DNA of 64,000 bases from Craterostigma plantagineum (lineage: Eukaryota > Streptophyta > Magnoliopsida > Lamiales > Linderniaceae): the NCBI GenBank assembly GCA_027422505.1, contig JAPQWV010000002.1, positions 27,878,501 to 27,942,500 of the forward strand, in the 5' to 3' direction. The position numbers and the translations under genes are program-made. The notes under the pieces are model-generated. The model saw only the letters and a list, made by a program, of their open reading frames with translations, did no database searches and had not been told where the DNA came from. Of this stretch, positions 1,559 to 26,130 are shown in pieces (positions within the stretch are counted from its first letter, which is position 1; each line of letters begins with the position of its first letter).

Positions 1559-2814
1559 ATCTTCGAATATTTTTTTTTTTTCCCAGCCAAAACAAAGCTA
1601 AGTAAGTTTTTCCATTGGAATTTGATTTAGCGTGTGAGTTCCACGCCAACTGAATTTCAAGTCAATGACCTCTTAATACGAAATACATATGCGCATCTTA
1701 ATCGGGTAAGTTAAAATCGAAAGTACCCACAAGTAAAATATTTGCTTCCTAAATTATAGAAATATGGACGCAGATTTCTGGGTCTTTTTAGGGGTAGTTA
1801 CGTTCATCGATACGATAACGTTGTACATTATGGTTAGTATTTTTTGCACCGCAATAATAATGTCTCCACCACACGGCCGAGGACGACATTTGCTACTAGA
1901 CTTAGCATGTTCTTCCTTAATAAAATAGATAGATATGGCTTTTTTTCAAGTTTGTGTAATATTTCAATATTAATTTTTATTGAATTGCTGGACATCGGTA
2001 TGGATAAGTGAAACTCAAAACGATTTATGTGTTTGTCAGCATTCACGTTGATTGAGAGAGGGAGACGTTAATTGACTATTATTCTCCACCATTAAATATA
2101 TCCAATGCTATTCATACATATCTTTCATTGATTTTATAAAGTAATTGTGATAATGTGAATATTATGAAATGAATATGAATGTATACGGAATATTCTTTGA
2201 TAGTACAAAATTAAAAGTTATTTGGTTGGAGTAAAAATACCCTGTACATTCTTGTGGTGTGTGTTGGCGTAAGCTTGTGATTAAGTGCTCCATTTATCAG
2301 TTAATAATTCCTCATGCAGGAAATCGGTGAGAGGATGTATTTTAATAATCAAAATAAATTGATGAGTGAGTGAGCAGCTAAGTAAAAAAAGTTCTGATAC
2401 GCCGTCCGCAGGCAAAAGCGTCAGTTTTCCTATGTTTTACTTTGGTTAAACCTTAAAATGGGCTGATAACTGCATTGAGTTAAACCATCGTTGTTAACAA
2501 TAATATGGTTCTACGCAAGGTGAGGGACCAAAGGAATTATACAGGGAAGTAAAATACGATGAACCAAGGAATAGGTTTTTCTCAGTTCCATTTCAATGGG
2601 TTTAGGTAGGTGAGTGTAACATCACATCGCAACTACTATTTGGTGCAAGAGCAACCAAACATAATCATTTTATTTCCTTTCTCTATCTTCCTTAAGTTCC
2701 AAGCCATGACTTAGCCAAGCAATCCCTTCAACTGATAAAATCCAACTCCAAAACACAATACCTCAACACATTCAAATTCCCCGATTGAAATCTTTCGTCC
2801 TTAACTGTCGATCG
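1559..2814. other. intergenic region and IRX9-like promoter
   Basis: AT-rich DNA between the copia LTR and the IRX9-like start. I see no gene. The last few hundred bases should contain the promoter and 5' UTR of the downstream gene, but no clear TATA box can be assigned. Confidence 0.4.
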
Positions 2815-8493: not shown

Positions 8494-8985
8494 CTTCCTC
8501 CGTCCCACTTATTTCTTCCAATCTTTCTATTTCGGGCGTCCCACATAATTCTTCCCATTTCCTTTTTTGGTAAAAAATTACTCCAATAATTAAACTAATT
8601 ACACCATTAATATCTTTAATACACGCAATTTAAAACTTAAAAACCTAACCAACTCCCCATATTTTCTTCTTTTTTTCCTCCCTAAAAACCTAACTTACCA
8701 AAAAAAAAACCTTCCAGCTTTTCTCTCACCACAATTCTTTCTTCCCCCAAATTCAGTAACCTAACTTTCTTTCCCAAATTCAAAAACCTAATCACGTTGG
8801 TTTCTCCCCCAATTTCAGCGAGCTTCTTCCCCAATATCGGGTCGTTTAAAAATTGGCCTTTGACATGGTCAATGTTAAAAAATAGCCTCCAAGTGTATAA
8901 TGACAGTTATACCCTTACTAAATGGGTCCCACTTTTGAAATCGATATCTGTTATCGGGGTCACAAAAGGGTGGGTGGGCGGGTCG

Positions 8986-9066
8986 TAGTCCAGTGGTTGT
9001 GTAGTCAGGCGTTCAAGTAGTAGATCATGGGTTCAAATCCCCAATAAGTAATTTTTTTATTTTTTT
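8986..9066 (+). promoter_or_regulatory. tRNA-like Pol III A box and B box with T-run
   Basis: TAGTCCAGTGG (8986-8996) fits the A-box consensus TRGYNNARNGG, and GGTTCAAATCC (9030-9040) fits the B-box GGTTCRANTCC. T-runs follow at 9052-9066. No acceptor stem can be folded, so this is not a working tRNA gene. It could be a tRNA-derived SINE head or an internal Pol III promoter. Confidence 0.5.
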
Positions 9067-9510
9067 GCAACATGGGCGGGGCCCCTGCAGTATGGGCGGA
9101 ACCCCAGCCGTGTGTGTGGGGGACCCTGCGCTTTGTGCAGGGACCCTAGCGCTGTGTGTGGGCAGCAGCGCAGGGGTCCCCGCACACAACGCATGGGTCC
9201 CCGCACACAGTGCAGGAGACCCGCGCACAGCACAGGGTCCCTGCAGCCGCACACAGCACAGGGTCCCCCTGCACACAGCGCAGGGTCCCCGCACACAGCG
9301 CACGGTCCCTACAGCCGCACACAGCACAGGGGTCCCCCTGCACACAGCGCAGGGTCCCCCGCACACAGCGCAGGGGTCCCCCTGCACACAGCGCAGGGTC
9401 CCCGCACACAGCGCAGGGGTCCCGCCCATACTGCGCACAAGATGGACGGGACCCCTGCTATATAGCACAGGTCCACTGAGCAGGGGACCCTTGCTATATG
9501 GCAGGGATCC
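9067..9510. repeat. GC-rich minisatellite, unit GGGTCCC plus GCACACAGCGCA
   Basis: About twenty head-to-tail units of roughly 20 bp, each pairing GGGTCCC(C) with GCACACAGCGCA or a close variant. The region is sharply GC-rich against AT-rich surroundings. Open frames appear in several phases on both strands only because stop codons are rare in the unit. It is the same kind of repeat as the arrays in the 14.5-kb MULE. Confidence 0.85.
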
Positions 9511-9654
9511 CCCTGCAATTTTTAAAAAGATGCCCTGTCAAATGACGTAAATACCCTTAATTCGAATTTTTTTAAAAGACATAAAAAATCGAGGGGGCTA
9601 TTTTTTTAACGTTGACTATGTCAAAGGCCATTTTTTTAAATATTCCCCCAATAT

Positions 9655-10560
9655 CTCTCGCAAACGATTTCCCAACCCCATCTCCCCTATGAAGCGTTTC
9701 AACCTGCCTCCTTTCTCCGTCGCTCAAAGTCTGATGGATGTGGCGGATATGTTGCTCGTGGTTCCAGAAACGCCGCCGGAGGCGTGGCTTGGGGTTTCAG
9801 AGACAGAGTGGTCCGGTTACGTTGAAGAAACGATGATGGATGAGACGGAGTGGCCCGATTCCGTCACAGTGGTCCCCTGCTCAATCGAAGACCGTCGACG
9901 CTCTGGCCAGATCTCTTGGCCCAAGCAATGTTTTCCCGAAGGAGGCTTGGGGTGAAGGTTTTGACAGCGGAAACGAAGCTCACGCTCATAGAGATTCTTG
10001 GGATTTATTGTCCATCGATATACCAGGAACGCCCTCCATTCTCGGTCATTATCGTTTTTAATAATGTGACTTTGCGATTTCTTGACTGTGTCGTGCTTGT
10101 CTTTAACGTTTTTGATTGTGTGATAGCTTGTCTGTTTCATTGATTGTGTGATAGTGATAGCTTGACTGCTGCTTTTTTTTTTGCTGATGCTGCTGAAGTG
10201 TAGATGAGGTCGTTTGCTACTATTTTCTGCCGTCTTTTGTCTCGTTGGTGCTGCTCCTTTTTTTTTTGCTGCAGATGAACCTTGGATGAAGATCAAATTT
10301 AGCTGCTTTCTTTTGTCTCTTTACAGTGGAAGTGTTGTAATGTAAACTGTTGTAATATCATGTACAGTGGTGTGTTTGAATGGTGTTGTTTTGTGTCTTT
10401 GATGTGTCCATTATGAACAGGTTTTTTGTTTGATGGTTTATGATGGAATGTTGCGATTGCTTTGATTAAATGGAGATGTGTATGGGTAATTTGAATTGTG
10501 TTAAAAATAAAGAGGGAAAGGAAATTTTGGGGGAATAATTACTGATTTAATTTTCTCTCC
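9655..10560 (+). other. interior of the TA-flanked element, coding-like stretch of unknown origin
   Basis: An 88-codon open frame at 9689-9955 (MKRFNLPPFSVAQS...) sits after a 5' UTR-like stretch and before T/G-rich, 3' UTR-like DNA. The Glu/Pro/Trp-rich composition (VPETPPEAWLG) does not look random, but I recognise no family. It could be the first exon of a captured host gene or a relic of the element's own gene. Confidence 0.3.
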
Positions 10561-10657
10561 TCTCCTTAACAAAGCGTGGTCCCAATACTTAAACAAGGCT
10601 TTCTTAATTTGCGTGCAGAGAAATATATGGGAACAAATATATGGGACTGAGGTAGTA

Positions 10658-11603
10658 CTTCAAAATATTCCTGAAAAAACTCCAAATTCGCAAAAAAAGA
10701 ATTGAGATGTATACGAGGAAAGCAAAACCCCAATAAGACTATGTTTATCGGACCTTCACAACCGATCATGAGAATAAAATATTAATTTCTCTCTCCTCCA
10801 TATTCACAACCTACACCTCAACAATTTTCATATTTTATCAACAACTCAGCACAGCCTATATTTATTTTTTATAATTATTTTTAGTAATATTTGAATGTTT
10901 GAAAATAGATTACATTATATGATATAAGATTTAGATACTTTGGTTATTGGAGATAGAAAAATAATATGAATTATGCTATGTTATAGAATGTAATAGAGAA
11001 ATAGATAATTTGAAATTGTGACTCAAAATGTAGCAATTAGTCTCTATTTGTGGAGAAAAAAATCATACATTTTGGTAAAAAAAATTGAAATAAAATTTTA
11101 GTAGATAACTAAATGTATCATAAAAATCAATAAAAAGCACAAAATCAATTTTGAAAACTGTGCACTACCGGTTGGTGAACCAGATTAATTCACCAACCGG
11201 GTTGTGGGAGCCGGGAGGTTGTGGAGAATATTTACTTATTTGATTTATTTTATTTAATTATATTGTACACCGATTGTCCATGTCATTGATAAATATAGTC
11301 TAAGGGGAAGAGACTCCCGCAAAAGGAAAAAAGCCCCAAGAAGGGGAAGAAAGTCCCACAAAGGAAAAATAAGCCCCAAAAAGGGAAGACATCTTCCACA
11401 AAGAAAGAAAATGGCTCCTACGAAAGGAAGCAAGACAAATATGAAAGGTGAAATAAAAGTAAAGAAAGTAAAATGTAGGTTTACCTCCCCGAAACTCCAT
11501 TAATGGAGGAAAGGGGAGAAGGGATCTTGATGGTGTTTGCTTTTCTCTTGTAGGAGAGGGGAAAATGGGAATATTCAACCTTGTGAAAATGAGTTATTAT
11601 TCT
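10658..11603. other. intergenic region with one hairpin and a purine tract
   Basis: AT-rich DNA between two mobile elements. CCGGTTGGTGAA and TTCACCAACCGG form a 12-bp stem around 11168-11200. A purine-rich stretch of repeated AAGCCCCAAAAAGGGAAG-like words runs from about 11300 to 11430. No gene is recognised. Confidence 0.35.
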
Positions 11604-11612
11604 CTTTGCAGC

Positions 11613-11665
11613 GGGTCTTTTTAAAAAATGGCCTTTGACGCGGTCAAGTTTAAAAAATAGCACTC
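11613..11665 (+). repeat. left terminal inverted repeat of the giant MULE
   Basis: This begins GGGTCTTTTTAAAAAATGG, continues TTGACGCGGTCAA, and ends AAAAAATAGCACTC. It pairs imperfectly with 26069-26121 and closely with both ends of the 808-bp element. Confidence 0.85.
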
Positions 11666-12114
11666 TTAACTTTTTTTTTTGGTCAATAGCACTCTTTTTA
11701 ATTAACACTTAATCATCTTTTCGTAATCCCTTATTATTAATTAAAAAAAAAAAGAAAAACAAAAATAAAATACAACGCCTGAAATGAATTAAAAGCTGCA
11801 CGTCCATTTTGCAGCAGAAAGCATTCATTCCACTCCACCTCACCGAATTATTCTTCTTCTTCGTCCTCGTCCTTAAGAGAAATTCCCCGACCTCATATCG
11901 CGCTTCTTCACAGTGGAAGGAAGCTGGAAAGTCCTCGGCGAACGAAAGATTCGAACCTCACGCTTCAGTGTAAGTATTTTTCCGGGTCGTATTTTGAATA
12001 TAACCATCTAAATCTGTAACTCTCAGTCCTAAACCCTTCCAATGGGTTCTCAAAGCTTCGGAAATTCCGGTTTGGAAGGCCGAACATGTTCATTGTTTTT
12101 ACTTCCAGTTGATC

Positions 12115-12475
12115 CGGGGACCCTGCTTGAAAGCAGAGCAGGCCACCCGCGCGTTCCGCGCGTTACAACGTGGGACCCCACATTAAAGCAGGAGTCCCGC
12201 ACATTAGTGCGGCGAGTAAATCACGGGACCTGCACATAAATTCACGGGACCCGCCCATAAATTCACGGGCCCCGCGCATCAGTGCATTGTCCCCGCACAT
12301 TAGGGCAGGCCCATTAGATCATGGGACCCGCGCATAAATGCAGGGTACCTGCGCGTAAACACAGGGGACCCGCGCATGCTTCATGCGGTAGAGCTTGGGT
12401 CCCGTGCACAAGAGCTTGGGTCCCGCGCACTAGAGCTTGGGTCCCGTGTACTAGAGCTTGGTCCCGCGTTATATG
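12115..12475 (+). repeat. GGGACCC array 1, upstream of the DEK_C fragment
   Basis: Irregular tandem units of about 20 bp: GGGACCC followed by GCGCATAAAT-like spacers, ending with several copies of GTAGAGCTTGGGTCCCGTG-like units. A CAGTGTAAGT donor-like site lies at 11967-11976 and an ACAAAACAG acceptor-like site just before the ATG at 12589. The array may therefore lie in a 5' UTR intron, as in both Ulp1 genes. Confidence 0.8.
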
Positions 12476-12588
12476 TTATGGTTTTGGGAAGCTCTTACGG
12501 CGTTTTGCAAGCTATATAAGGCTTGGATTTATCAAACACACAGCATATAACATTTTTAAAAAATAATCCCAGAAACAAAACAGGAAGA

Positions 12589-12971
12589 ATGGTGACGGAC
12601 GCCCAAATCGTCGCCCGCCTCCACGAAATCGTCCGTCACTCGGACCCCTGGACTACCACGGCCGCCGCCGTCCGCCGCCGTCTGGAGGCCGACCTCGGTG
12701 TCGACCTCTCCCAAGGAGGGCGTGGATCGTGGCCGAGATCGACAGATTCCTAAACGGCGACGACGATGCTCTCGAGGTCGACGACGACGATGTTATGAGC
12801 GAAGTTATCGAAGGACAAGCACCCGAGGCTGTCCGAAACGACGATGACGAGGCTGAGAGCGAAGTGATCCAAGGCCCAGGTTGGATCGAGGTTGTCCGAA
12901 ACAACGCTGTGCAGAAGGAAGGATGTCGACCAAGCTCCGGTTGGTGGAGAAGGGCGAGAAGGGTAGAATAA
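12589..12971 (+). pseudogene. captured DEK_C/SWIB-type gene fragment, frameshifted
   Basis: From the ATG at 12589 the frame reads MVTDAQIVARLHEIVRHSD, then TTTAAAVRRRLEADLGVDLS. This is the DEK C-terminal-type helical domain that begins plant SWIB/UAF30-like nuclear proteins. The expected continuation AWIVAEIDRFL is present but one frame away, so a single base seems to be missing in the G-rich stretch near 12708-12721. An acidic tail (DDDALEVDDDD) follows, with a stop at 12971. No SWIB domain is present. I infer that the element captured the 5' part of a host gene, as Pack-MULEs do. The fragment may still be transcribed, but as read it is broken. Confidence 0.7.
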
Positions 12972-13369
12972 ATTATTTAATAATTTTATCAATCAAGATA
13001 TGCTATTCCTATTATTATTGATGTACGTGACCTTGACAATATAATTAGTACTGTATTTTAAATTAACTATGTTTTATAATGTAATATTTAGTTCCGTTAA
13101 AAAATATAGATAGTGCTATGGTATTTAATTTAATTTAATTAGGTTAGTTCAACATAAAGGGGTATTACATTAAAGGGTTTTCAGGTTTAACTGCAATTAA
13201 CTGACCCGTGATGGAACAGTAAAAGTTAAAAAGCATTTCAGAACCACCACTTTAACTTTCAATTCACTTCAATCGTTTTCTCCTGCACACAAAACGCCCT
13301 GCAAATCGTTTCTCTGCAAGTCCAACTATTCTCTGCAAGTAAAACCCAGTCCTAGAGCGTAAATCGACA
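12972..13369. other. putative promoter of the left DUF1985/Ulp1-like gene
   Basis: AT-rich DNA without ORFs. The last 110 bases contain repeated CTGCAAnTC/CTGCAAGT words that also occur just upstream of the right paralogue's ATG (about 25700-25740, minus strand). This indicates a shared 5' UTR and promoter. Confidence 0.45.
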
Positions 13370-16300
13370 ATGGCAGTCAACCCGAACACCGAGAAGGTAT
13401 TTTCTCTACTCTGCGTCTTCTTCAATTTAACGCAGCAAACCCTAATTCGGTGCGGACCCGTGCTGATAAGCATAGGACCGTGCTTAGAATTCACGGGACC
13501 CGCCCATAAAATGATGGGCGGAGCACGGGTCCACTGCGTATAAGCGTGGTACCCTGGTTATAACGAGCGGATTCCCTGGTCGCAGCGCGTGGGTCTCGTG
13601 ACCTTGCGCCTGTGAAGAACAACACGGGACCCGCGCGCTACGGTCAGGGGACCCGCACGTATAATCAAGGGACCCGCGCTTATATCCAGGGGACCCTTGC
13701 CTAGTCCATCATCTTATGGGCGGGTCCCGTGAATATACGCAAGGGTCCCGTGAAAGTAGACACAGATCCCGTGAAGATACGCACAGGTCCCCTGCTCATG
13801 CGCAGGGGTCTCAGTCGCATCCGTGCTTGACTGTCAGCATATACGATGCGGTCCCCTGGCCATATGTGCATAAGGGTTTTCGATTTTCAATATTCATATA
13901 CCAAGTAATTGGCTAAACTGTGTTTTACGTATAAATTAGGTTGTGATGAAGACGCAGTTGGGCACAGAAGTTCCTGATTGTCGTCCTACAGTGACCTCGC
14001 TATACGGCGAGGCCAGCCAGCTGATAAGACAGTGCCTTAACGATGAGGAGTTGGCCGTATATTATGCCCACAGTCCGTTCGGCCGCCTTGTCATGGCCGA
14101 GCCGGACTTTAACCTCTCGATTCAGTTGCTGTGGTACCTTATCCAAAGGCAGACGGCGCTGCACACCCGCGAAGAGCTGTGGATGGTTGTTGGCAAAAAA
14201 CCACTTCGATTTTCAAAATCGGAGTATTGCCTAATCACCGGCCTCAAGTTCGCAGCCGCGATACCGGCGGTGGACCGCGTGGAAGCATTCACGAGGAGGC
14301 ATTTTGGCGCTAGTTCAACAATTCGCCTGTCGAACGTCAAGCAGGCGTTGGAGGCCATGTCTGGCGACGAGGAACGTGTGGAGGAAGAGAAGCTCAAGTT
14401 GGCGGATGTCTACTTCGCCACCGCGGTGTTGCTGCCTCGAAGGTCCAAGAAGGACACCGTCGTGTCTTCCTGGGTCCTTCACCTCGCTGAAGACCGGATT
14501 GCTTTCTCAGAGTATCCTTGGGGCAGCGAGGCTTTCAAGGAGGTCATGCGCGCTGTGAGGAAAAATCTACGGGAGAACCCACGGGAGTGGCTGATAAGTG
14601 GGTTCGTTCAGCCACTTCAGGTGATTTATTATTAAGCTTCTTTGCATACCTTGTTTTTACATATAAGTAATTGCTAATATTTATTGTGTTATTTGTATTC
14701 AGATACTAGCTTATGAGTGCATCTCGGGCATTGGAGAGGCCTATGCGTTGCGCAAAGAAGAAGATTTCACGCCACGCATGTCGAGGTGGCAGACGAAGGA
14801 TTGGGGTCGCAAGAATTGCCCGAAACAGAAGAGCATCGCAGAGGCCGCTAGCAAGTTCCATGTACTAGCAGGGTTAATAGTGCCGTCAGCGGACGAGCTG
14901 GAGGCGGCGTACTATAGGGACAGCGTCTTCGACGTTGGGCCGGCACACGACCTATACGATCGTGTGACCTTTCTACTCCTGCATGGAGTGGAGGTTAGGT
15001 GCTCCCGCGGCCACCGCCGTCGCGGTGAGGGTTCTAGCCGGCAGAATTTGGTGCCTGAGACCATCGCCCAGATCGAGGGCAGTCAGCGACGCGACACCGA
15101 TATAATTCAGCATCACGGCCAAATCCCCGAACATCCGCACGGCAACCCAGAACCTCCGCACGAGCACGCCTTTCATGCAACACCGGAGACCCCACGATCA
15201 AGTGGTCAGGGTTTCGCCTCGGGTCCACGCTTCGATGAATGGCAAAGTCGTATGGACCAAAACTTCACCAACTTGTTTGGGCGATTCGACCAACTTGGCA
15301 CGCAATTGCATCAGTTTCAAGAAGAAGAGGGTCGACGGTGGTCGACGAACGAGAGAAGGTGGGATGCGTACGAGGAACATTGGACGGAAATGCGATCATG
15401 GGCCGACAGCCTCAGGGAGTTGGGGAACTCGGTTCAGGGTTTGGCGAGCAGATTTTATCACGGGTCTCGCACTCCGCCTACCGAAGCTCGTTATAGTAAG
15501 ATATTTATTTATTCTTAATTTTTTAATTAGTTGCGCAGTTTACTCAACAGTTACTATTTACGATGTAGATGTCGATCCAAACGAGTTTGATAGTGGATCG
15601 CACGCTGAACAGCCCGAGTTTGGTGGTGGATTGCACGCTACACCGCCCGAGTTTGGTCAGTTTTTATACTTAATTTTTTAATTAGTTGCGCAGATTACTC
15701 AACAGTTACTATTTACGATGTAGATGTCGATCCAAACGAGTTTGCTAGTGGATCGCACGCTTCACAGCCCGAGTTTGGTGGTGGATTGCACGCTACACCG
15801 CCCGAGCTTGGTCAGTTTTTATACTTAAGGACGTGAAAAATAATTTATAGTTATTTTCGAATTTCTTGTATAGATTACGATGAGAGATGGAGGAACACAT
15901 CGTACATGGGACCGGATGCCTATATTCCGAGCCAGGAGGCATGGGACGGTCACAGTCCGTCTGAATGGGCGCAAAAACGTTACGATGAATATGTCGCACC
16001 GGCTCGGTCCGATGAAGAGAGACCGCCCGAGGTTGTCGACCCATCGTCGTGGAGGGGCGCTTATGGTCTCGGGGTTCACGAGGCAGTGACGGACATAGAG
16101 GCTCAAGAGGACCACGCTGATCAGTTGGAGACGCACGCCGAGGCTTCGGTTTCTGTCCAAGCGACCGACAAAGGAAAAGGCGTCGTGACAGAACAGACCC
16201 CTGAGCGGACGAAGAAGCCATCTTGGTACACCACGACGCCGTTCACCGATTTCCCCTCGACGAATACAGTCAAACCTCCAAAGCTTTCGGCGTTCGAGCG

Positions 16301-17237
16301 GCATATCCAGTTCAAGGTCGAAAACTTGTGGCCAAAAGTCGAAAGTCAGCTAAAAACGGCTTTGCAGATTACCGGCATGAAAGTACAAGGGATCCTAGGA
16401 CAACACGACCCTACATGGCTCCTGAACCTTGCGACTGAGGGTATTAAACTCGATGAGATGGTACGTATATAAATTTACCAAATACCTTTCGTCACCTTAC
16501 TTGAATGTGTTAAAAACCGGTTTGCTTTTATTGCAGCATGTCGATGAATGCCTCGCTGGGATCGAACGCATGCAGAAATTTAGCAAATCGGTTGCGAGCA
16601 AAGTCGCGTACATGCCCCATACGTTTAAGACGCTCGTCGACGAGCGAGGGGTGCTAAACCTAATCGGGAAGCCTAAAGGGAAAGGCTTCAAGAAATTGCT
16701 CCCGTTCGCGAATGGGGAGGACGAAAATTGGAAATGCAGGTCGTGGGATCTAGCGACCAAAGTTGCCATCCCCATGCGTACGTCAGGCCGATGGGTGTTG
16801 TTCGTTGTTGATGTGCGGGGAAAGGAGTATACGATTTACGACTCCGATGCGCCTCCTGGCTTCGAGCTGCGCTTTATCGCCGACGACATCAACAAACTTC
16901 GGATCGTAATCCCGGCTATTTTCAAGGAACTGAAACTGATAACACGCATGCCTAACAAGGGCAAGAGCTGGCCGGCTAGGTGGTGTCGCGAATTCAGGAA
17001 ACAAAATCAGTAAGTTTTCATGAATGATGCGTTTTATTACTTTGTCGTCGTGTTTAAAAATAAGTGTCTTTTTCGATATGATTTTCCAGGGGAGAAGATG
17101 GAGTGGCGATGTTGCGGGCGGCAATGTCGCTTATGATGAAGAAGGACGACGTCTCCCGCCTCAATCAAACTCATATGCAGGCGTTTAGAAAATACCTCGC
17201 ATCTTCTATTTTCAATAATGATTGGGACTCTTTTTAG
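13370..17237 (+). CDS. DUF1985 + Ulp1-like protein, catalytic residues lost
   Basis: Eight exons splice without a stop into 961 codons: 13370-13396, 13940-14620, 14703-15495, 15569-15655, 15724-15810, 15874-16460, 16537-17009 and 17090-17237. The nine-codon first exon (MAVNPNTEK) matches that of the right paralogue. Exon 2 has the DUF1985-type segment (FGRLVMAEPDFNLSIQLLWY, KSEYCLITGLKFA). A long charged, probably disordered linker follows. The C-terminus has the C48 fold pattern (WDLATKVAIPM, GRWVLFVVDVRGKEYTIYDS). The catalytic His of the usual HW pair is Arg (GRW), and the DCG cysteine motif reads EDG, so it should not cleave SUMO. It starts 1.7 kb from the left terminus and reads inward. 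Comparators are the VANC-like and Ulp1-like accessory proteins of Arabidopsis MULEs. A binding or anti-silencing role is inference. Confidence 0.85.
13449..13880 (+). repeat. GGGACCC array 2 in first intron of the left Ulp1-like gene
   Basis: Units such as GGGACCCGCGC and GGGTCCCGTGAA repeat between AT-rich intron ends. The 3' end is a conserved module: GAGACCCC or GGGTCTC, then ATACGATGCGGTCCCCTG, then TGCATAAGGGTTTTC (about 13805-13880). This module recurs at 18710-18795, 19465-19555 and, inverted, 24930-25010. The intron runs 13397-13939. Confidence 0.88.
15514..15823 (+). repeat. 155-bp tandem duplication containing one exon
   Basis: Copies 15514-15668 and 15669-15823 are nearly identical. 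Each starts CTTAATTTTTTAATTAGTTG and includes an 87-bp exon (PNEFDSGSHAEQPEFGGG-like). Because the exon is a multiple of three, the duplication adds 29 codons without breaking the frame. Confidence 0.9.
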
Positions 17238-18354
17238 TATACCATTTTTATTTTAATTAAAATTTGCGATGCTCACGAACTATTTCATGTGTTGTTGAAT
17301 TTCTCCCTTGAGTTTTAATTTTACTTGTTTGATTTGTGCATATCGTTTGGTGGATATGAATTTAGGGTTTAGAATTGTGAACGATTGAGTTTCTCTGTGT
17401 TTTCCAACTTTTTGTCAGTGAGACTGATGTGTGATTTGACGTAAAAATAAAAGAACTGAATTTTAAGTGATTTGAAATCTTTCTAGTTTTCTGTTTAATT
17501 TTAATTTTAGTTGTTTGATAGAAGTCATCTGCTTTACGTGTGTTTGATATCAATTTAGGGTTTAGAAATTGTGAGAGGAGATTTTGTCAGTGAGAGTGAT
17601 GTGTGAGTTGACATAAAAATAACGCGAATGGCAGTGGTTTGACATAACTTAACTTTTTTCATATTAAGTTTTCCGTGTTATCTATGAACGCTCCCTTAGC
17701 GGGTCCCCTGAATACAAGCGCTGGTCCCATGCTCATAACGCACAGGTCCCGTGACCTTTACGAGCGGGTCTTCTGCTTAAATCAAGCAACATTTCGAAGG
17801 GACCAGTCGGGCCCCGGCAATGACATGCGGACAATTTTGACGGGACCACGACTGACCCGGACATCTCAGTGTGGGGACTATGCAATCATCGCGGGTCCCC
17901 AGTTTTGAAGAGTGGGTCCGCTGTTCAAAAAATGTGGGTCCCCTATGTTCATGTGCAATTTTTGCAATGTTAATTCATGGAAGTAAGCGATTAATTGAGC
18001 GTATTTATACTTTGTTTATCGTAGACTACAATATAAAGTCATCATAAAATAGCACAGAACAAAAAAAATGGAGGTAATCAAAAGAATTACGTTCACTTTA
18101 TAAGATTGTTACAGCCTACATAAATCACAAACATGAGTATGTTTTATCGGTGTGCTCTCTTACTAGATTCACGTCAATGATCGTACGACTCGAAATACAT
18201 GTTGTAAAATATATTTTCTTTTTTCTAAACTTGGAGTTAGATATTGTTAATCGAGTGGTTATTTAAATTTATTTTTTTTACGCACTCTTAATTTTTTATT
18301 AATTTTATCTTATTAACGAATTTAATAATATATTAGATTTTCACAACATTACAA
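17238..18354. other. MULE interior with GGGACCC array 3
   Basis: AT-rich DNA after the left gene's stop. A TTTAGGGTTTAGAA-like segment is duplicated near 17362 and 17556. A GC-rich array with GGGTCCC, GGTCCCATG and GGGACCA words runs from about 17697 to 17945. No ORF is credible. Confidence 0.5.
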
Positions 18355-19556
18355 GCAAATCGGGAATAAAATGTCAAGTCATCTGTCCTGTACATACTGT
18401 ATAGTATCACTGCTCTGACATGTCACTTTTGACGAATAAATAGGGACACTGCTCTGACATGTCAGTTTTGACCTATAATTGAGCAATTATTGGTCCCACT
18501 CAATAAGCGAACATCACTAACCCTAATGTGCGGGTACCGTGTGGTAATCGGAAGGTCCCCTGCCTTTAAGGTTTGAGTCCCATGCTCGTAACGCGCCCTC
18601 CCTGCGCGCAAGACTCATGGGACCCCGCATTCCTATCACGGGACCCAAACGTTGAAGTCATGGGACCTTCACGTTATGGGAAGGGGACCCGGCGGGAACC
18701 GCAAAGATGCGCCGGGGTCTCATGCGAATCCGTGCGCGCTTCGCTGCATATGCGATGCGGACCCCTGCGCATCTGTGCATAAGGGTTTTCTATTTCCATA
18801 TTCGTACCGTAATTTTCTAAAGGGGGCTACTATTCACACCCCCTCTTGAATAAAAAATACGATTTTAATCTTATAAATAAATATAATTCATATAAAAAAT
18901 ATAATGACTATCTTATTAACGAATTTAATAAAAAAATATAATGACTATCTTATTAACGATTTTAATTCATATAAATAAATATAATTCATATAAAAAATAT
19001 AACCCATACTAACGAATTTTTTAATTTTTTATTAATGACTATCTTATTAACGAATTTAATAATATTAGATTTTCGCAGTGGACATCTTATTAACGAATTT
19101 AATAATATTAGATTTTCGCCGGGGACAAAAAAGTGGAATCGGGAATCAAATGTCAAGTCATCTGTCTCTGATGACTTGTATAATGACACCGCTCTGACAT
19201 GTCACTTCACCAATAAATGAAGCACTGCTACATGTCACCTTTCATCAATAATTGAACAATTATTGGACCAACTTACTAAGCGAACGTGACCAACCCTAAT
19301 GATTTGGGGTACCATGTGCTAATCGGCAGGTCCCCTCCCTTTAACGTTTGGGTCCGATGGGAGTAACGCGCCCCTCCCTGCGCGCAAGGAACATGGGACC
19401 AGCGCGATTTTTTCACGGGACCCAAACGTTGAAGACAGGGGACCCGGCGGGGACCACATTCATGCGCAGGGGTCTCATGCGCGTCCGTGCGGGATTCTCT
19501 GCATATGCGATGCGGTCCCCTGCGCATTTGTGCATAAGGGTTTTCTACTTCCATAT
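18355..19556 (+). repeat. two direct copies of an intron/promoter-like module (arrays 4 and 5)
   Basis: Copy 1 (18355-18800) and copy 2 (19132-19556) align along their length. In order they share AATGTCAAGTCATCTGTC, CTCTGACATGTCAC, AATTATTGG, AACCCTAATG, GGTCCCCT, CGCGCAAG, GGGACCCAAACGTTGAAG, and finally CATATGCGATGCGG...TGCATAAGGGTTTTC. That closing module also ends the first-intron arrays of both Ulp1 genes, but no coding exon follows here. Between the copies lie repeated CTTATTAACGAATTTAAT words. Confidence 0.75.
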
Positions 19557-19649
19557 TCACGCAAAAGCTCGCCTAACACAACCTTACATAACATAACACA
19601 AATGGCGACGTATAAGCCACTCTGAATACGAAAACTACATATTACAACG

Positions 19650-21974
19650 TTATCTCGTACCAAATTCACCCGTCGAAGGAAACCTATTTTTCTGGGGTCG
19701 TCCACGTTGTGAACCAACACGAGGCGGCAACATGTCCATACTACTTTCAATGCGGTCCGTTACCGGGCGTATAGTACCTTCGTATGCCAGTTTCCAGAAC
19801 TCCAAGGTATAATAATCGTGCACTAATGAATATATCGGCACTTGGGCAGAACCACAAGCTGCAACCGCATGTGGACATGGGATACGATCGATGTCAAACA
19901 TCATGCACGTGCATGTGCGCAGCCCCAAATCGACCACCTCGTTCACATGCTGCCCGTATACGTTATATGTTAGATGCCCGACTTCCGACACATGAAATTT
20001 TTGCGACTCGGTGAAATTCTCTCGTATGATCGACTCTACCTTCGGCGTAAACCTAGTCATGTTCGAGGCGATTGAAGCTTCCGCAGAGCGCCGATGCTTA
20101 CTGAACCATGATGATGTTAGTCGCTGAATCGAGCCCAACAGTCCAATAATTGGAAGCTCTCTGTCCTTACGTAGAGCTGCATTTATAGACTCCGATCCGT
20201 TGGTCGTCATTATGTTGTATCTTGATCTAGGGCAATATGCTCGCGTCCACGTTTCCTTTGGGACTTCGTTAAGATACCTCTGCACGTCCGCATATTTTCC
20301 GTCAAGCTGCCTAAAATGACGGTCGCACTCGCTCTTCGTGTAGGCAGTAGCGGCACGCCAAAAGATTGGACAAGCACCTTTCTTCTTCATTCTCGTCTTC
20401 ACGTTTTGTTGAAGGTGCCACGCACAGAAACCATGAAACGCGTTTGGGAAAATGGCCGGAACTGCATTCTTGATTCCAGGGTTCCGATCGGAAATTATTA
20501 CGAGATCGTCGCCATCCGCAACAAAACGTCTTAATCTCGACAGAAACCACGTCCATGGGTCGGTTCCCTCCGACCCGTCGGCAATACCCCATGCTAAAGG
20601 ATATTGATGGAAATCGCCGTCTTGCGCAGTGGCAATCATCATGAGTCCCTTATACTTCCCCTTCAAAAAAGTGGCATCGATAGAAACGACTTTCCTCATG
20701 AACGTAAAGCCGCTGACGCATGCTCCGTATGCCAAGAACATGTACTTGAACCGATTGTCTTCGTCCATCTCCCAATCAGTGATACTGCCCTCGTTGGCTT
20801 GCCTCACCGCATCTAAGTAAGACGGCAGTAAACCGTAGCAAGCGTCCCTGTTACCAACTAGTTCGTCGGTCGCAATTTGTTTTCCTCTCCAAGCCTTGTA
20901 GTATGAAACTTCTACTCCCCTGCTCTGCATCATCGACTGTATGGAACTGGGAGCGGGGATGTCTTTAGGAGCCCTGAAATTTTCCAACAACGTGCTCGAT
21001 ACGAGCGACGAACTTCCCTGGCGATGTCTACGGCGTCGATGAGACACGCCGCACGTGTGCGTGTTGACGTACTTTCGGATTGAGAAAAAGGGGGAGTCCT
21101 TATCCTGTGCACCTCGTATGCGCCATTCGCAGTTCTCCTTCGCACATTTCACTACGTACAGGGTTTTGTTTGACCTATCCACTTGGAGTTCGAAGCATGC
21201 AGCGACAGCGATTTTAGTGATTTCGTCCTTCAATTCTTTCTTGCTACGGAATTGTTGTCCAACATATAGGGTCGAACCATCCGTAAACGAATAGGTACCA
21301 TCGTCGGCCACATCAGTTGCGTCGTCGTGCACATCGACGTCAAAATCGTCATCATGTGCGTCATCATCATCATCATCATCATGCATTAAGGCACCTTCCT
21401 CGTTCTCATTTTCGTCGTCCCGTCCGACTTGCTCGTTCTCATTATCATATCCTTGGCCGCAGATTCCGGAGTAATCGCCTACATAGCCACTGCTTTCATT
21501 ACTTTGGTCAGGAGGGTTGTAAGATGTGCTGGGAAAACCCTCAAATGGTTGGATTTCGGCGTTTGTATCGCAATGCGCTATAAGGCCGACGTCGAAACCA
21601 GAGAAATCATTATCATGAGGTTGATGTGGCGGTGACGCAATGATGGCTAATTCAAGTTCCACGTGAAGAGGTGGTCTTGATCGTGGGCAACCACCTCCAA
21701 CGTACGCACGTACGCCGTAATCGTTCTCGATGTAGATGGGGCGCACATAATTGTAGTCTATGCAAGGCATGTAGCTTATCCGTAGTTTGGTATTGTCGTT
21801 GCGTAACGACAATGCATTCAATATCTCGTTAGTGAGATCCACTAACGTGCATGACTCCTCGTCGACCAAGATTGATTGCCAACGGCAAGTTGGATCCGGA
21901 ACCCAGTTCGACGTATTGTCCTCGCGAATTACCCACTTACCATCGACTTGAAAAACAATGCTGGTGATCGTCAT
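19650..21974 (-). CDS. MULE transposase (MURA)
   Basis: A single uninterrupted exon of 775 codons. The ATG at 21974 is the first in frame; the frame extends upstream only through a GTG. An N-terminal domain is followed by a very acidic stretch (DDDDDDAHDDDFDVDVHDD). A MuDR-type domain comes next (RSKKELKDEITKIAV), with the zinc-binding CAKENCEWRIRGA. The DDE transposase core has VVSIDATFLKG and LVIISDRNPGI supplying two Asp, and FCAWHLQQNVK. A SWIM zinc finger CxCx(n)CPHA lies near the C-terminus (TCTCMMFDIDRIPCPHA). The order and length are those of autonomous MULE transposases, which act in the nucleus and produce 9-bp target duplications, matching this element's flanks. No lesion is seen, so it may be active and may also move the 808-bp derivative. 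The third acidic residue cannot be fixed without an alignment. Confidence 0.93.
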   Translation of the reverse strand: MTITSIVFQVDGKWVIREDNTSNWVPDPTCRWQSILVDEESCTLVDLTNEILNALSLRNDNTKLRISYMPCIDYNYVRPIYIENDYGVRAYVGGGCPRSRPPLHVELELAIIASPPHQPHDNDFSGFDVGLIAHCDTNAEIQPFEGFPSTSYNPPDQSNESSGYVGDYSGICGQGYDNENEQVGRDDENENEEGALMHDDDDDDDAHDDDFDVDVHDDATDVADDGTYSFTDGSTLYVGQQFRSKKELKDEITKIAVAACFELQVDRSNKTLYVVKCAKENCEWRIRGAQDKDSPFFSIRKYVNTHTCGVSHRRRRHRQGSSSLVSSTLLENFRAPKDIPAPSSIQSMMQSRGVEVSYYKAWRGKQIATDELVGNRDACYGLLPSYLDAVRQANEGSITDWEMDEDNRFKYMFLAYGACVSGFTFMRKVVSIDATFLKGKYKGLMMIATAQDGDFHQYPLAWGIADGSEGTDPWTWFLSRLRRFVADGDDLVIISDRNPGIKNAVPAIFPNAFHGFCAWHLQQNVKTRMKKKGACPIFWRAATAYTKSECDRHFRQLDGKYADVQRYLNEVPKETWTRAYCPRSRYNIMTTNGSESINAALRKDRELPIIGLLGSIQRLTSSWFSKHRRSAEASIASNMTRFTPKVESIIRENFTESQKFHVSEVGHLTYNVYGQHVNEVVDLGLRTCTCMMFDIDRIPCPHAVAACGSAQVPIYSLVHDYYTLEFWKLAYEGTIRPVTDRIESSMDMLPPRVGSQRGRPQKNRFPSTGEFGTR

Positions 21975-22667
21975 GATTATCACCGAAAGTGATCGTACGA
22001 CTGTGGAATGTATGCTTTCTGTACCAAAAAATGGTCGTGCATTATTTTAAAGGTTTATCAAGTCATATGGTGGGTAACGTGCTAAAGGGACCATAACTTA
22101 AAATCATGGGAAATGCACGTAAAATCAGGGGACCAAAACATTCTCAGGGGACCCGTGCTTATTGCGTTGGCGCTGATGGGACGCGTCCCGTATAGGTATG
22201 TATATGAACGGGTCGCTGTCCAATTTAGGGTTTCTCTTTAGTCGTACCAATAATTGAACAATTACTGATTATTTGGTCAAAATATTTTCCTCAGTAACAA
22301 GTCAAATCACCCATCACGTTTCGTTTCATACAGAGAATCAATTATTCAACAATGGAAAAAGTTTTATCAAGTCATATGGTGGGATACGTGCTAAAGGGAC
22401 CATAACTTGAAATCATGGGACCTTCACGTAAAATCAGGGGACCCGCACGTAAAATCAGGGGACCCGCGCATATTGCTGAGTATTTGGTCAAAATAATTTC
22501 GTCAGTAACAAGTCAAATCACCCATCACGTACTTTCGTTTCATACAGAGAATCAATTCATTCAATAATATCAAAAACTTTTAGTTCCATAAACCTACAAA
22601 CTACACCAAGTCCATTAAACCTACAAAGCCACTTACAATTAACACTTCCAAACTACCCCAAACTAAT
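21975..22667. repeat. duplicated MURA upstream region with GGGACC motifs
   Basis: Two direct copies (22052-22360 and 22363-22570) begin TTTATCAAGTCATATGGTGG and contain GGGACCATAACTT, ACGTAAAATCAGGGGACC units and a shared tail CAAGTCAAATCACCCATCAC. They lie directly 5' of the minus-strand transposase, so the motif-bearing DNA is again at a gene's upstream side. Confidence 0.7.
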
Positions 22668-25600
22668 CTATAGGGTACAGCTATGCGGGTCACGCAATAT
22701 CCGTGCAGCCATAGTGGCTCGATACGCCGAAATATCAATCTGCCGTTGATATTCATCAAACTCGGGCGTGTCAACCATAATCGTCTCCACCGTCAACGCC
22801 GCATGAACCCCGCAATCCAAGCTGTCAGCCTTCTGCTGGCGATTCATTTTATTATTCAACTTCGGCTTCGTCACGATGTCGAACTTGAAACGCCAATATG
22901 CGGAAAGAAACTCCGCCTGCAAAATATAGCAAATACCGAACATGGCACTAAATAAATAAAAATGATAGACAAACGGATTTCAGCTACTTACGAACACTCT
23001 CCCGGCGAACTGCACACCATGCGCGCCCAATGAATCGTGAAGGACGAAGGTTTGCGTTGACGCGTCAAAAATAAGCACTGCCCAGTGGGCCCGTGCGCAA
23101 ACAGGAGAGATGATGTACTTGCATCGTAGCAATTCATCCTCCGTGAGACGCTCCAACCAGCTCCGACTGCTTCTCGACAATCCATTCACGAAGCTCTCCA
23201 TATCATCCACCCCGACTTTCGCCTTCCTATTCAACTTCTGCGCCTTCCTAAAGTGATCGTCTTGCACGTAACTTGGAAAGACGAAGACGCGAGGATAATT
23301 GTCATTGTCCGCATAGATTCGCCTCAAGCAATCTAGATATGCGTCAAGACAATTGGACTTGAGCATATCATGGAAGAGCAGCATGTAGAAGCCTTGGGCA
23401 TCCACGTCGCACATGTCAGACGACCAAACGGTATCACTGCATAAAAAGAAAAATTATTACGTGTTTAGGTACGATAACTGAGATTGACATCGAAAGTAAA
23501 CATTTACCTAAATCTTGCCGCTTGAAGGTACATGTCAATGAGCACGCGATCGTGCTCATGAATCAGCTCACGCCCGGAGAAGTCCCATCGCCCGAGGTAC
23601 TTCTTGCTCCACTTCTCATTTCTATCTGAGCCAGAATCCTCATCACTTAGATCAACAACATCTACAGGCGCTTTGCCTCTTCTTCGAACTCCTCGGGCAC
23701 TCGACGAAGCACCAACGTCTCCCGCCTCAACCACCTCCACAGGTGTGGGAAAATCTTCAACAGGTACGATCGCTAAATGATCGTCGTCGCCACGATCGAG
23801 GTGGACAGGGGAACACCTAACCTCCACTCCCCGCGTGAGTAGGCCCGTCACACGGTCGAATATGTCGTGTGCCGCCCCAACGTCGAAAACGCTGTCCCTA
23901 AAGTACGCCGCCTCCAACTCTTCCGCTGACGGCACTAACAACCCTCGTACAAAATCGCGGTTGACGGCATCTGCGACCGTCCTAAGAGTCGGGCATGCTT
24001 TGCGACCCCAATTCTTCGTCTCCCACCTGAGCATGCGTGGCGTGAAATCTTCTTCCTTGCGAACCGCAAACTGGTCTGCAACCCCCGGCATGCACTCGTA
24101 TGCTAGTATCTGAATACAAATAACGCAAAAAATCTTACAAACGTCCCTCAAAACATGGTATGCAAGAAGCTTAGTTATAATTCACCTGAAGTGGTTGTAC
24201 GAACCCACTGATCAGCCAGTCCCGTGGCCTCTCCCGTAGATTTACCTTAACACTTCGTATCACCTCACGGAAAGCCACGGTGCCCCAAGGGTACTGGGAG
24301 AATGCAAATCGATCATCGACGAGACTAAGGACCGTCGTACTGACGACGGTGTCCTTCTTCGACGGTCGAGGCATCAACACGGCGGTGGCGAAGTACACGT
24401 CCGCCAACTTCAGCTTCTCGAAGTCCACATTGTCCTCGTCGCCAGACAACCGCTCCAACACACGCTTGACGTGCGACATGCGGACTTTTGAGCTGTTGCC
24501 AAAATGTCTTGCGGTGAATTGTGAGCCGTCGTTTACCGGCGGTAGCTCGGCTGCGAACTTCAGCCCGGTGATTAGGCAATAATCCGACTTTGAAAATCGG
24601 AGTGGTTTTCCGCCAAAAATCATCCACAGCTCTTCCCGGTTGTGCAGCATCGTCTGGTTCTGCATGAGGTACCACACCAACTGTCCCGAGAGGTTAAAAT
24701 CAGGCTCAGCCATAACAAGGCGGCCGAACGGACTCTCGTTCCTAAAAATCTCCCACTCGTGGTGGTTCAGACACTGTCTTATCAGCTCGCTGGCATCCGC
24801 GTATAACGAGCTCATTTTTACACTCAAACGGGGAACTTCGTCCACTGTGTCGAACTGCTTCTGCATCACAACCTAATTTATGCGTAAAACACATTTTAGC
24901 TAAATTACGTGGTATGAAATAATTAAAACAGAAAACCCTTATGCATAGATGCGCAGGGGACCGCATCGCATATGCTGAGATTCAAGCACGGACGCGCATG
25001 AGACCCCTGCGCATCGGCGCGGTCCCAGCAAGGGTCCCCCGCGTATAAGCGCGGGTCCCCTGGTCATAGCGCGCGGGTCCCCTGCATAAAACGCGCGGGT
25101 CCCCCGAACTTGCGCACGCGCAGTGGCACAGGACCCGCCCGTTAAGATAAGAGGACCCGTGCGTTTAAGTAGGGGAACCGTGCGTATAAGCGCGGGTCCC
25201 CTGCGTATAAGCGCGGGTCTCCTGGGCATAGCGCGCGGGTCCCCTTCTTATAACGCGCGGGTCCCCCGCTTGCGCACGCGCAGTGGCACAGGACCCGCCC
25301 GTTAAGGTAAGAGGACCCGAGCGTTTAAGCAGGGGAACCGTGCGTATAAGAGCGGGTCCCCTGCGTATAAGCGCGGGTCCCCTGAGCATAGCGCGCGGGT
25401 CCCCTGCTTATAACGCGCGGGTCCCCCGAACTTGCGCGCGCGTGACCCATGTCCTATGCTTGCAAGCACGGGTCCTATGCTTGCAAGCACGGGTCCTATG
25501 CTTGCAAGCACGGGTCCTATGCTTGCAAGCACAGGTCCTATGCTACCAAAGCTCTGTCCTACGCTTGCAAGCACGGGTCCGCACCAAATTAGGGTTCGAT

Positions 25601-25684
25601 GGGTCGTTCCCAGATCCCCTCTCGCGTTAAATTGAAGAAGACGAAGAGTAGAACACATACCTCCACGTTCGCGTTGAATGCCAT
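22668..25684 (-). CDS. DUF1985 + Ulp1/C48 cysteine protease, triad present
   Basis: Five exons splice into 669 codons without a stop: 25684-25661 (MAFNANVE), 24872-24186, 24109-23508, 23436-22992 and 22916-22668. Exon 2 carries the same DUF1985-type domain as the left paralogue (FGRLVMAEPDFNLSGQLVWY, KSDYCLITGLKFA). Exon 3 has ILAYEC, KEEDFTPRML, LEAAYFRDSVFDVG and an acidic linker. The C48 domain shows RAHWAVLIFD (His), VLHDSLG (Asp) and SLDCGVHA (Cys), the Ulp1 catalytic set. Ulp1 proteases remove SUMO from proteins in the nucleus. Transposon-borne Ulp1-like genes are well known, but their substrates are not established. It begins 0.4 kb from the right terminus and reads inward, mirroring the left gene. 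Whether it acts on silencing factors or the transposase is speculation. Confidence 0.88.
24950..25600 (-). repeat. GGGACCC array 7 in first intron of the right Ulp1 gene
   Basis: The densest array in the element. Units GCGCGGGTCCCCTGCGTATAA repeat at about 20 bp within a higher-order repeat of 160 bp, anchored by CAGTGGCACAGGACCCGCCC at 25121 and 25281. At 25446-25585 it changes to a 21-bp unit GGGTCCTATGCTTGCAAGCAC, six to seven copies, with the palindrome TGCTTGCAAGCA. The 3' end of the intron (24930-25010) carries the conserved GCGATGCGG..CATAAGGGTTTTC module. The intron spans 24873-25660. Confidence 0.9.
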
Positions 25685-26068
25685 TGTCGAATGAGTCGAT
25701 TTGCAGAGAAGACGACGATTTGCAGTGCAGGGGCGGGAGAGCACACGCTTGTTCTTTTACTGGAAGTGAAAGTGGAGACGATTTGCAGTGCAGGGGCGGG
25801 AGACACGCTTGCTTTTTTTACTGGAAGTGAAAGTGGTGGGTGGTTGCTTTTTTTACTGGAAGTGAAAGTGGTGGGTGGTTGCTTTTTTTTACTTTTACCC
25901 CACCCTTCTATAACGGGTCTGATGTTTCATATTCGCTACAGTGTAACATGTAAACCCTTTAATTAATTTTATCGTTAAGTGTTGTTGAGGTTGTTGATTG
26001 ACATTAAATAAGGGTAAAATAGTCTTTAGAGCAGAGTTAGTAAGGGTACAAAGGTAAAGTCCGATTTT
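25685..26068 (-). promoter_or_regulatory. promoter region of the right Ulp1 gene
   Basis: Only 384 bp separate the start codon from the right terminal repeat. A segment with GGAAGTGAAAGTGG and a G/T-rich tail is present three times in tandem (about 25755-25890), part of it together with GATTTGCAGTGCAGGGGCGGG. The promoter, including terminal-repeat elements, must be very compact. Confidence 0.5.
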
Positions 26069-26121
26069 GAGTGCTATTTTTTAAAAGATGACCAGCTCAA
26101 GGGCTATTTACTTAAAAAATC
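26069..26121 (-). repeat. right terminal inverted repeat of the giant MULE
   Basis: Read on the minus strand it is GATTTTTTAAGTAAATAGCC, then CTTGAGCTGGTCAT, then TTTTAAAAAATAGCACTC. It is more diverged from the left end than the two ends of the 808-bp element are from each other. Confidence 0.8.
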
Positions 26122-26130
26122 CTTTGCAGC

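Follow-up and report, generated by a model that had tools for sequence, protein, structure and literature searches.

VANC is a transposon protein that removes DNA methylation, and its targeting is reportedly determined by the sequence, the density and the helical periodicity of a motif. In VANDAL21/Hiun of Arabidopsis thaliana, the non-coding DNA contains a short motif to which VANC21 binds; regions with this motif are tandemly repeated upstream of VANA21 and within introns of VANB21 and VANC21, and the motifs of an array share one orientation (PMC5735166). In the same paper, a figure legend gives DUF1985 as a domain of VANC, and VANCs are described to carry tandem peptide repeats (PMC5735166). 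The VANDAL group is listed with 9-bp target-site duplications (TSDs) and with terminal repeats of 46-174 bp or none (PMC6446971). In the Kaonashi (KIU) Mutator-like elements (MULEs) of Arabidopsis, the VANC genes have an Ulp1 domain, the precise role of which is given as unknown in the available excerpt of PMC13317346, and the Ulp1 gene runs opposite to mudrA, according to the accessible part of PMC2528002.

Here, we analysed a 64-kb stretch of DNA from Craterostigma plantagineum (referred to as the window), in which a Mutator-like element of 14.5 kb spans positions 11613-26121. In our view, with a probability of roughly three in four, this is a VANC-type (VANDAL/Kaonashi-like) anti-silencing MULE whose VANC gene has been duplicated as an inverted pair with predicted active-type and dead-type Ulp1 tails, and its non-coding DNA looks like the target of the VANC-type proteins. 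As in MuDR of maize, where mudrA and mudrB read inward from both ends, inward-reading genes are located at both ends, but those of MuDR are the transposase gene and mudrB, whereas here they are two VANC paralogues. Both mudrA and mudrB are named in PMC6446971. Like VANDAL21/Hiun, the element codes for VANC-homologous protein with DUF1985 and has arrays both within its VANC introns and ahead of the transposase gene; it shares the 9-bp TSD and the short or degenerate termini of the VANDAL group (PMC6446971), and its left gene contains an in-frame exon doubled in tandem, which resembles the tandem peptide repeats of VANCs. Unlike VANDAL21, it has inverted arms over its 14.5 kb, its motif is GGGWCCC instead of YAGTATTAY and lies in both orientations rather than one, and it has a pair of VANC homologues that carry Ulp1 tails, whereas the word Ulp1 does not appear in the text of PMC5735166. 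With Kaonashi, it shares a MULE-borne Ulp1 and, for the left gene, an orientation opposite to the transposase, but Kaonashi has one Ulp1 gene among three coding genes in the portions available of its descriptions (PMC13317346, PMC2528002, PMC6117577), whereas here there are two, one per direction, and one of them lacks the catalytic residues. CUMULE and the grapevine ULP-containing MULEs also carry Ulp1, some of them with terminal inverted repeats and in either orientation to the transposase; unlike here, no Ulp1 gene pair within one element is mentioned in the accessible part of the source (PMC2528002).

Boundaries and transposase of the element

In the 64 kb, CTTTGCAGC was found exactly twice when both strands were searched, directly outside the two ends of the element, and thus flanks it as a TSD of the 9 bp expected for a MULE. 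The inner ends could be aligned over 51 columns with a local score of 49, compared to a maximum of 24 in 500 shuffles; these imperfect termini fit the short or degenerate ones of VANDALs. The MURA frame is open from stop to stop and contains the domains of a MULE-type transposase (MULE, E 1.5e-16; DBD_Tnp_Mut, E 4.4e-14; SWIM, E 2.4e-7); a comparison with the PDB gave no match at E <= 0.01. Judged from its sequence, the element is one complete single insertion with a 9-bp TSD, and its autonomy is plausible. The preliminary description had proposed a single intact element with 9-bp flanks and matching termini, an unbroken MURA frame, two inward-reading paralogous genes and a captured fourth gene. 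Our results agree with the boundaries, the single element and the MURA frame. The captured gene is present, but as a broken fragment: its first 54 residues match DEK_C (E 3.5e-10), the frame shifts after about 40 codons, and the later piece, scanned separately, gave no match at E <= 0.1. The block at 11666-13150 looks left-specific, since its homology to the right end was not above that of shuffled sequences in any of the three sub-blocks compared.

Table 1 Features of the Craterostigma element and of its sister element, with positions in the window.
Feature	Position	Strand	Details
Sister element, non-autonomous	8839..9646		808 bp; related termini; 16 motif centres; TSD CCCAATATC at 8830-8838 and 9647-9655
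TSD, left copy	11604..11612		CTTTGCAGC; just two occurrences in window
Left terminal inverted repeat	11613..11665	+	about 53 bp, imperfect
GGGWCC/GGWCCC array	12120..12462		10 centres; upstream of captured gene
Captured host gene fragment	12590..12967	+	DEK_C domain at start; TATATAAGG upstream at 12513
Left arm of inverted gene pair	13151..15028	+	promoter side, exon 1, intron 1, DUF1985 part
Left VANC-type gene	13370..17237	+	8 exons, 972 aa; DUF1985 and Ulp1-like domain without catalytic His/Cys
Left gene exons	13370-13396, 13940-14620, 14703-15495, 15551-15655, 15706-15810, 15874-16460, 16537-17009, 17090-17237	+	
Left gene intron 1	13397..13939	+	11-centre array (13456-13852)
Tandem duplication	15508..15817	+	155 bp, 96% identical; doubles in-frame 105-bp exon of left gene
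Array 3' of left gene	17704..17939		8 centres
Two tandem intron-1-like blocks	18307..19558	+	18307-18803 and 19084-19558; 78% identical; 7 centres each
MURA transposase frame	19650..22046	-	798 codons without stop; DBD_Tnp_Mut, MULE, SWIM
Arrays upstream of MURA	22090..22462		3 and 4 centres
Right VANC-type gene	22668..25684	-	5 exons, 668 aa; DUF1985 and Ulp1 domain, His-Asp-Cys kept
Right gene exons	25684-25661, 24872-24186, 24109-23508, 23436-22992, 22916-22668	-	
Right arm of inverted gene pair	23787..25976	-	
Right gene intron 1	24873..25660	-	21-centre array (24960-25578)
Right terminal inverted repeat	26069..26121	-	about 53 bp, imperfect
TSD, right copy	26122..26130		CTTTGCAGC

Two VANC-type genes and their Ulp1 tails

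The exon models of both VANC-type genes were made from the sequence, without RNA. All introns, seven in the left and four in the right gene, are GT-AG, the junctions having been picked with this rule in mind, and introns 1 and 2 are located at identical places in the two genes. Joining of the exons raised the score for Ulp1 (Peptidase_C48, cut-off 20.7 bits) from 15.1 to 24.5 bits for the left gene and from 25.2 to 40.7 bits for the right gene, which independently supports the models. In these models, the two genes splice into one long frame each, as previously proposed, and like the Kaonashi (KIU) genes they are MULE-borne and contain Ulp1. DUF1985 was detected in both genes as well. The best PDB match of both N-termini was VANC21 (PDB 9lnj/9lnk), with E 1.3e-17 for residues 46-319 of the left and E 9e-16 for residues 72-339 of the right protein; the homology covers the DUF1985 region and beyond, as in a VANC, and we therefore regard the genes as VANC-type with Ulp1 tails. 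A comparison of the right protein to a protein collection, which we infer to contain few or no plants, gave no match at E <= 0.001 among 7996 candidates scored. An AlphaFold model of the DUF1985 exon, based on two sequences, reached a mean pLDDT of 42.7 and was discarded.

The designations in the preliminary description hold in part. Both genes score as Peptidase_C48 and can in this sense be called Ulp1-bearing, but the half they share is a VANC relative and the catalytic triad is present in one of the two. Likewise, the paralogues read inward from opposite ends, but clear likeness at the protein level is limited to residues ~1-345 (229 of 347 identical, 66%). The proposed selection on the coding sequence is supported in the form of constraint by a dN/dS of 0.58 between the left and right genes (95% bootstrap interval 0.42-0.76, 343 shared codons), a value which gene conversion between the arms could disturb.

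With regard to the tails, the right one retains the His-Asp-Cys triad. In the left one, Arg occupies the column of the catalytic His and the catalytic Cys is missing, by either substitution or deletion: in three alignments to SENP1, the residue opposite the catalytic Cys is Gly in two cases and Val in one, and on visual inspection it might be Asp. The best reading is that the right protein has an active-type and the left protein a dead-type Ulp1 tail, as predicted from these residues. A wrong splice site that hides the left catalytic Cys appears unlikely for the one junction examined: past residue 780, the model contains Cys at positions 833 and 916 only, and the left frame directly past this junction reads GEDGVAM.

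GGGWCCC arrays in non-coding DNA

GGGWCCC is present 37 times in the 7186 bp of non-coding DNA versus 0 times in the 7323 bp of coding DNA; in 500 first-order Markov resamplings of the non-coding part, the mean was 0.65 and the maximum 4. As for VANC targets, a short motif is thus concentrated in non-coding tandem arrays. The motif core forms eight separate clusters of at least three centres; in the left gene, the stretch from exon 2 through exon 8 contains just three isolated centres, and neither MURA nor the stretch from exon 2 through exon 5 of the right gene contains any. No gene was seen behind the intron-1-like blocks at 18307-19558. The motifs of the large element are in helical phase, with R values of 0.70 at 10.7 bp and 0.73 if the duplicated blocks are left out, each reached by none of 1000 random placements, a test that ignores the 21-bp tandem duplication from which part of the phasing originates. 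Among single blocks, the one 3' of the left gene, the second internal one and the one upstream of MURA peak at 5.5, 5.6 and 20.9 bp, respectively, and their values at 10.2-11 bp were reached by 8, 4 and 2 of 300 placements. In the array of the sister element, phasing at 10.2-11 bp was not significant (140 of 1000 random placements as good), but phasing at 20-23 bp was (3 of 1000 placements as good). The motif is A-centred on the plus strand in 6/10, 6/11, 2/8, 9/14 and 5/21 cases in arrays of the large element and in 4/16 cases in the sister element. The motifs preceding MURA all have this orientation (7/7), whereas all other arrays are mixed, unlike those of VANC21. Since the core is nearly palindromic, its orientation may carry no meaning, and a single orientation is a feature of VANC21 that is not known to define the VANC family.

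Proposed anti-silencing by VANC-type proteins and alternative explanations

The combination of VANC relatives with GGGWCCC packed in non-coding DNA at helical spacing suggests that the element probably frees itself from plant silencing. One or both VANC proteins would bind the arrays, both those in the two first introns and ahead of MURA and that of the sister element; the resulting loss of DNA methylation would allow expression of both elements and their mobilisation by MURA. In this process, the arrays would receive an active Ulp1-type protease with the right protein and a dead Ulp1 fold with the left one, the latter protein acting as binder, partner or DNA-binding-only version. Such a pair could have originated when a VANC gene, including promoter and array intron, was duplicated as an inverted copy so that the two came to lie toward opposite ends; the linkers and Ulp1 tails would then have diverged or been exchanged, with the N-terminal halves remaining alike. 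The VANC-type reading is based on the VANC21 match, DUF1985, the layout of the arrays, the motif density and phasing, the sister element, the dN/dS and the doubled exon. A genuine two-protein system, in which two VANC readers of shared phased GGGWCCC arrays, one with active and one with dead Ulp1, form an inverted pair in the arms and serve in trans the sister element, which consists of hardly more than termini and a target array, is a tentative extension that we would not bet on.

Alternatively, the left gene might be a decaying duplicate whose Ulp1 tail died by drift, with the right gene alone at work. The loss of the catalytic His and Cys is in accordance with this, and weak decay of the tail is possible since, out of 2000 neutral simulations each, the tail alone remained open in 265 at 0.1 and in 46 at 0.2 substitutions per site. 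However, the complete frame of 972 codons stayed open in none of the 2000 simulations at either level (substitutions only), the doubled exon remains in frame and dN/dS is below 1 across the shared part, which leaves decay as a rather unlikely explanation. The locus might also consist of two elements inserted head to head, as the arms are inverted copies of one another and a head-to-head pair of VANDAL21 is known from the available part of PMC12312487. But a single TSD pair encloses the whole element, and an inner terminus pattern of 15 bases, searched with at most two mismatches, detects both ends of the large and of the sister element and is absent between 11664 and 26070, so that we consider two insertions highly improbable. 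A longer terminus pattern matched only at 8854 and 11629 and carries little weight against two insertions, since it also missed both right-hand ends.

For the arrays themselves, subterminal repeats are transposase binding sites in other DNA transposons, and the GGGWCCC arrays could thus be sites for MURA, with the VANC-like proteins acting elsewhere or not at all. This would also explain why the sister element has termini and an array, while neither a VANC nor a MURA part was found in it. Yet no centre lies within 461 bp of the right end, the first centre on the left, at 12120, lies about 500 bp inside, and arrays located deep inside the element, in introns and 3' of genes, correspond to the layout of VANC targets (PMC5735166); we regard this explanation as improbable. 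No more credible are functionless minisatellites spread by replication slippage next to captured Ulp1 relatives. Tandem Repeats Finder did list several arrays with units of 20-22 bp, and spacing by even turns arises from tandem duplication alone. Against this, the core is split into separate clusters and nearly absent from MURA and from the gene stretches past intron 1, as described above, the motif recurs in a second element whose ends are related, and gaps of odd turns are likewise in phase in 10 of 13 cases (binomial P 1e-4, an optimistic value in view of shared ancestry and a tolerance of 2.1 bp set post hoc).

On the VANC-type reading, the locus offers a natural pair of an active-type and a dead-type Ulp1 on related VANC halves with shared candidate target arrays, which bears on the role of Ulp1 in transposon-borne VANC proteins. 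If confirmed, GGGWCCC would add a GC-rich sequence, very different from YAGTATTAY, to the anti-silencing targets, and local demethylation would gain another sequence-specific tool. In the sister element, the longest two open frames (181 and 170 aa) gave no Pfam family at E <= 0.1, and the element represents a natural candidate target alongside the pair. It sits 2 kb from the large element.

Boundaries and architecture of the Mutator-like element

The large element, a Mutator-like element (MULE) with a MURA transposase and inverted arms, is flanked on both sides by the 9-mer CTTTGCAGC, which has no further occurrence within the window. Its left and right termini could be aligned over 51 columns with a score of 49, compared to at most 24 in 500 shuffles. 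A 15-base pattern of the inner terminus matched both ends of the large element, both ends of a small non-autonomous sister element and a distant spot at 62750, but nothing inside the large element, so that its ends give no sign of two separate insertions.

The element carries two inward-reading VANC-type genes, each with a DUF1985 N-terminal half and a Ulp1 (Peptidase_C48) tail. All 11 introns of the two gene models are GT-AG, the splice junctions having been selected with this in mind. Joining of the exons raised the Ulp1 family score from 15.1 to 24.5 bits for the left and from 25.2 to 40.7 bits for the right gene, the Pfam matches of both joined proteins exceeding the curated cut-off, and introns 1 and 2 are at identical positions in both genes. 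This gain in score and the matching intron positions lend the predicted exon models independent support.

The two proteins are alike over about residues 1-345 (66% identity) and diverge beyond this point in linker length and Ulp1 tail; the best further BLASTP match between the tails covered 51 residues at 20% identity (E 0.094). At the DNA level, the inverted arms resemble each other, each consisting of promoter side, tiny first exon, array intron and VANC half. The left terminus and left arm are separated by a left-only block containing a captured DEK_C host gene fragment, which shows a frame shift after about 40 codons; three of three sub-blocks matched the right end no better than shuffles. 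In the left gene, a 105-bp in-frame exon and its intron are present as a tandem duplicate (96%). Two tandem intron-1-like leader copies (78% alike), in which exons were not seen, lie between the left gene and MURA and are perhaps relics of more VANC genes or additional target arrays. Right intron 1 harbors 2.5 copies of a 160-bp unit (92%), perhaps a recent array expansion.

Features of the two elements and their surroundings, with density of motif centres (GGGWCC or GGWCCC)
Feature	Coordinates	Strand	Centres per kb	Remarks
Large element	11613-26121			14,509 bp
Upstream of captured gene			10.2
Captured gene region			1.3
Left arm	about 13151-15028
Left gene		plus		8 exons, 972 codons; model without RNA
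Left intron 1			20.3
Left gene, exon 2 to exon 8			0.9
Exon-intron duplicate	15508-15817
3' of left gene			7.5
Leader copies	18307-19558
Internal block			10.4
MURA	22046-19650	minus	0	open stop to stop; DNA-binding, MULE and SWIM domains as expected
Upstream of MURA			11.3
Right arm	about 25976-23787
Right gene		minus		5 exons, 668 codons; model without RNA
Right intron 1			26.6
160-bp repeats	25032-25442
Right gene, exon 2 to exon 5			0
Right-hand 461 bp of large element				0 centres
Sister element	8839-9646			808 bp; target site duplication CCCAATATC
Putative insertion around sister	8490-10660
Glycosyltransferase family 43 piece	2710-3456			nearby host gene
CHX-type plant cation/H+ antiporter	37251-40133			nearby host gene
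Window outside both elements			0.35

Identity and constraint of the VANC-type proteins

Compared to PDB sequences, VANC21 was the top match of both N-terminal halves, with E 1.3e-17 for the left 345 residues (runner-up 0.86) and 9e-16 for the right 344 residues (runner-up 0.23). According to PMC5735166, VANC21 is transposon-encoded, demethylates VANDAL21 and binds to a motif of nine bases, and the legend of Fig. 5 gives DUF1985 as a VANC domain. Ulp1 is present in some VANC genes, termed Kaonashi (KIU) genes, according to a Genome Biology 2026 review (PMC13317346).

For both proteins, the PDB matches to SENP1 were weak, with E values of 0.059 to 0.66 (right) and 0.096 to 0.5 (left). In these comparisons, His (AHW), Asp (HDS) and Cys (DCG) of the right protein were placed by phmmer on the corresponding SENP1 residues, which form the catalytic triad. 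The left protein has Arg (GRW) in the His column, retains the Asp and has no Cys near the last motif. The catalytic triad is given as His-Asp-Cys in PMC6117582.

Between the left and right genes, dS was 0.41 and dN 0.24 over 343 shared codons, giving a dN/dS of 0.58 (bootstrap 0.42-0.76), a value open to distortion by gene conversion from one arm to the other. The shared codons are constrained, albeit not strongly. When neutral drift was simulated with substitutions as the sole kind of change, at either 0.1 or 0.2 per site (n = 2000 each), the left frame stayed open in 0/2000 runs at both rates and the right frame in 1/2000 and 0/2000 runs, respectively. Taken by itself, the left Ulp1 tail (206 codons) was still open in 265/2000 and 46/2000 runs, so its open frame is no proof of constraint.

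Density and helical phasing of the motif arrays

When all 7-mers in the non-coding DNA of the large element were counted, GGGACCC ranked first (37), A/T-only 7-mers excepted. The full motif GGGWCCC occurred 37 times in 7186 non-coding bp and 0 times in 7323 coding bp of this element, 15 times in the sister and 4 times in the remaining 48.7 kb of the window. With the looser core, 75 centres were obtained in the large element, 71 of them in clusters of three or more.

Centre-to-centre distances were phased at 10.7 bp (R 0.70), matched by 0/1000 random placements within clusters; without the 19 centres of duplicated blocks, the 52 left gave R 0.73, likewise matched by 0/1000. When blocks were taken singly at 10.2-11 bp, 0/300 random placements equalled the phasing of either intron-1 array or of the array in front of the captured gene; the figure was 2/300 upstream of MURA, 2/300 and 4/300 for the internal blocks and 8/300 for the array 3' of the left gene. 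In three of the seven blocks, the top period was 5.5, 5.6 or 20.9 bp instead. Even-turn spacing is expected from a 21-bp repeat alone, and 32 of 45 nearest-neighbour gaps were even turns. Ten of the 13 remaining gaps were odd turns of 12, 32-33, 51-55 and 74 bp (binomial P 1e-4, with arrays sharing descent and a post hoc tolerance). The motif orientation is mixed in all arrays except the one upstream of MURA, and in this the arrays differ from the VANC21 motifs as described in PMC5735166.

Proposed mode of action and the sister element

Beyond the VANC homology and the presence of arrays, the probable mechanism is drawn by analogy with VANC21: the VANC-type proteins would bind the arrays, binding would lead to loss of methylation, this loss would permit MURA expression, and MURA could then render both the large element and the sister mobile. 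Known kinds already include VANC systems, VANCs with Ulp1 and targets made of tandem repeats (PMC13317346 and PMC5735166), as well as non-autonomous clients, the PAC element being one candidate (PMC12312487). In the part of the literature covered, we found neither an element whose inverted arms hold a pair of VANC-Ulp1 paralogues, one of them with a dead Ulp1 tail, nor a GGGWCCC target; this is no claim that either is absent from print.

The termini of the sister can be aligned with those of the large element (best pair 88% over 42 bp), and 16 motif centres lie between its ends. Beyond the termini, blastn at E 1e-3 detected no likeness between the two elements, so their arrays have core and spacing in common and not longer sequence. 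The two longest open frames of the sister matched no Pfam family. Its one-turn phasing was not significant (equalled by 140/1000 random placements); a period of 20-23 bp was significant (equalled by 3/1000). The sister has the appearance to be expected of a non-autonomous client of the large element. It is apparently nested in another insertion, MITE-like by eye, with ends 'ctccgtcccacttattt ... tgggactgaggtagta', and a gene-like stretch was seen within this putative insertion.
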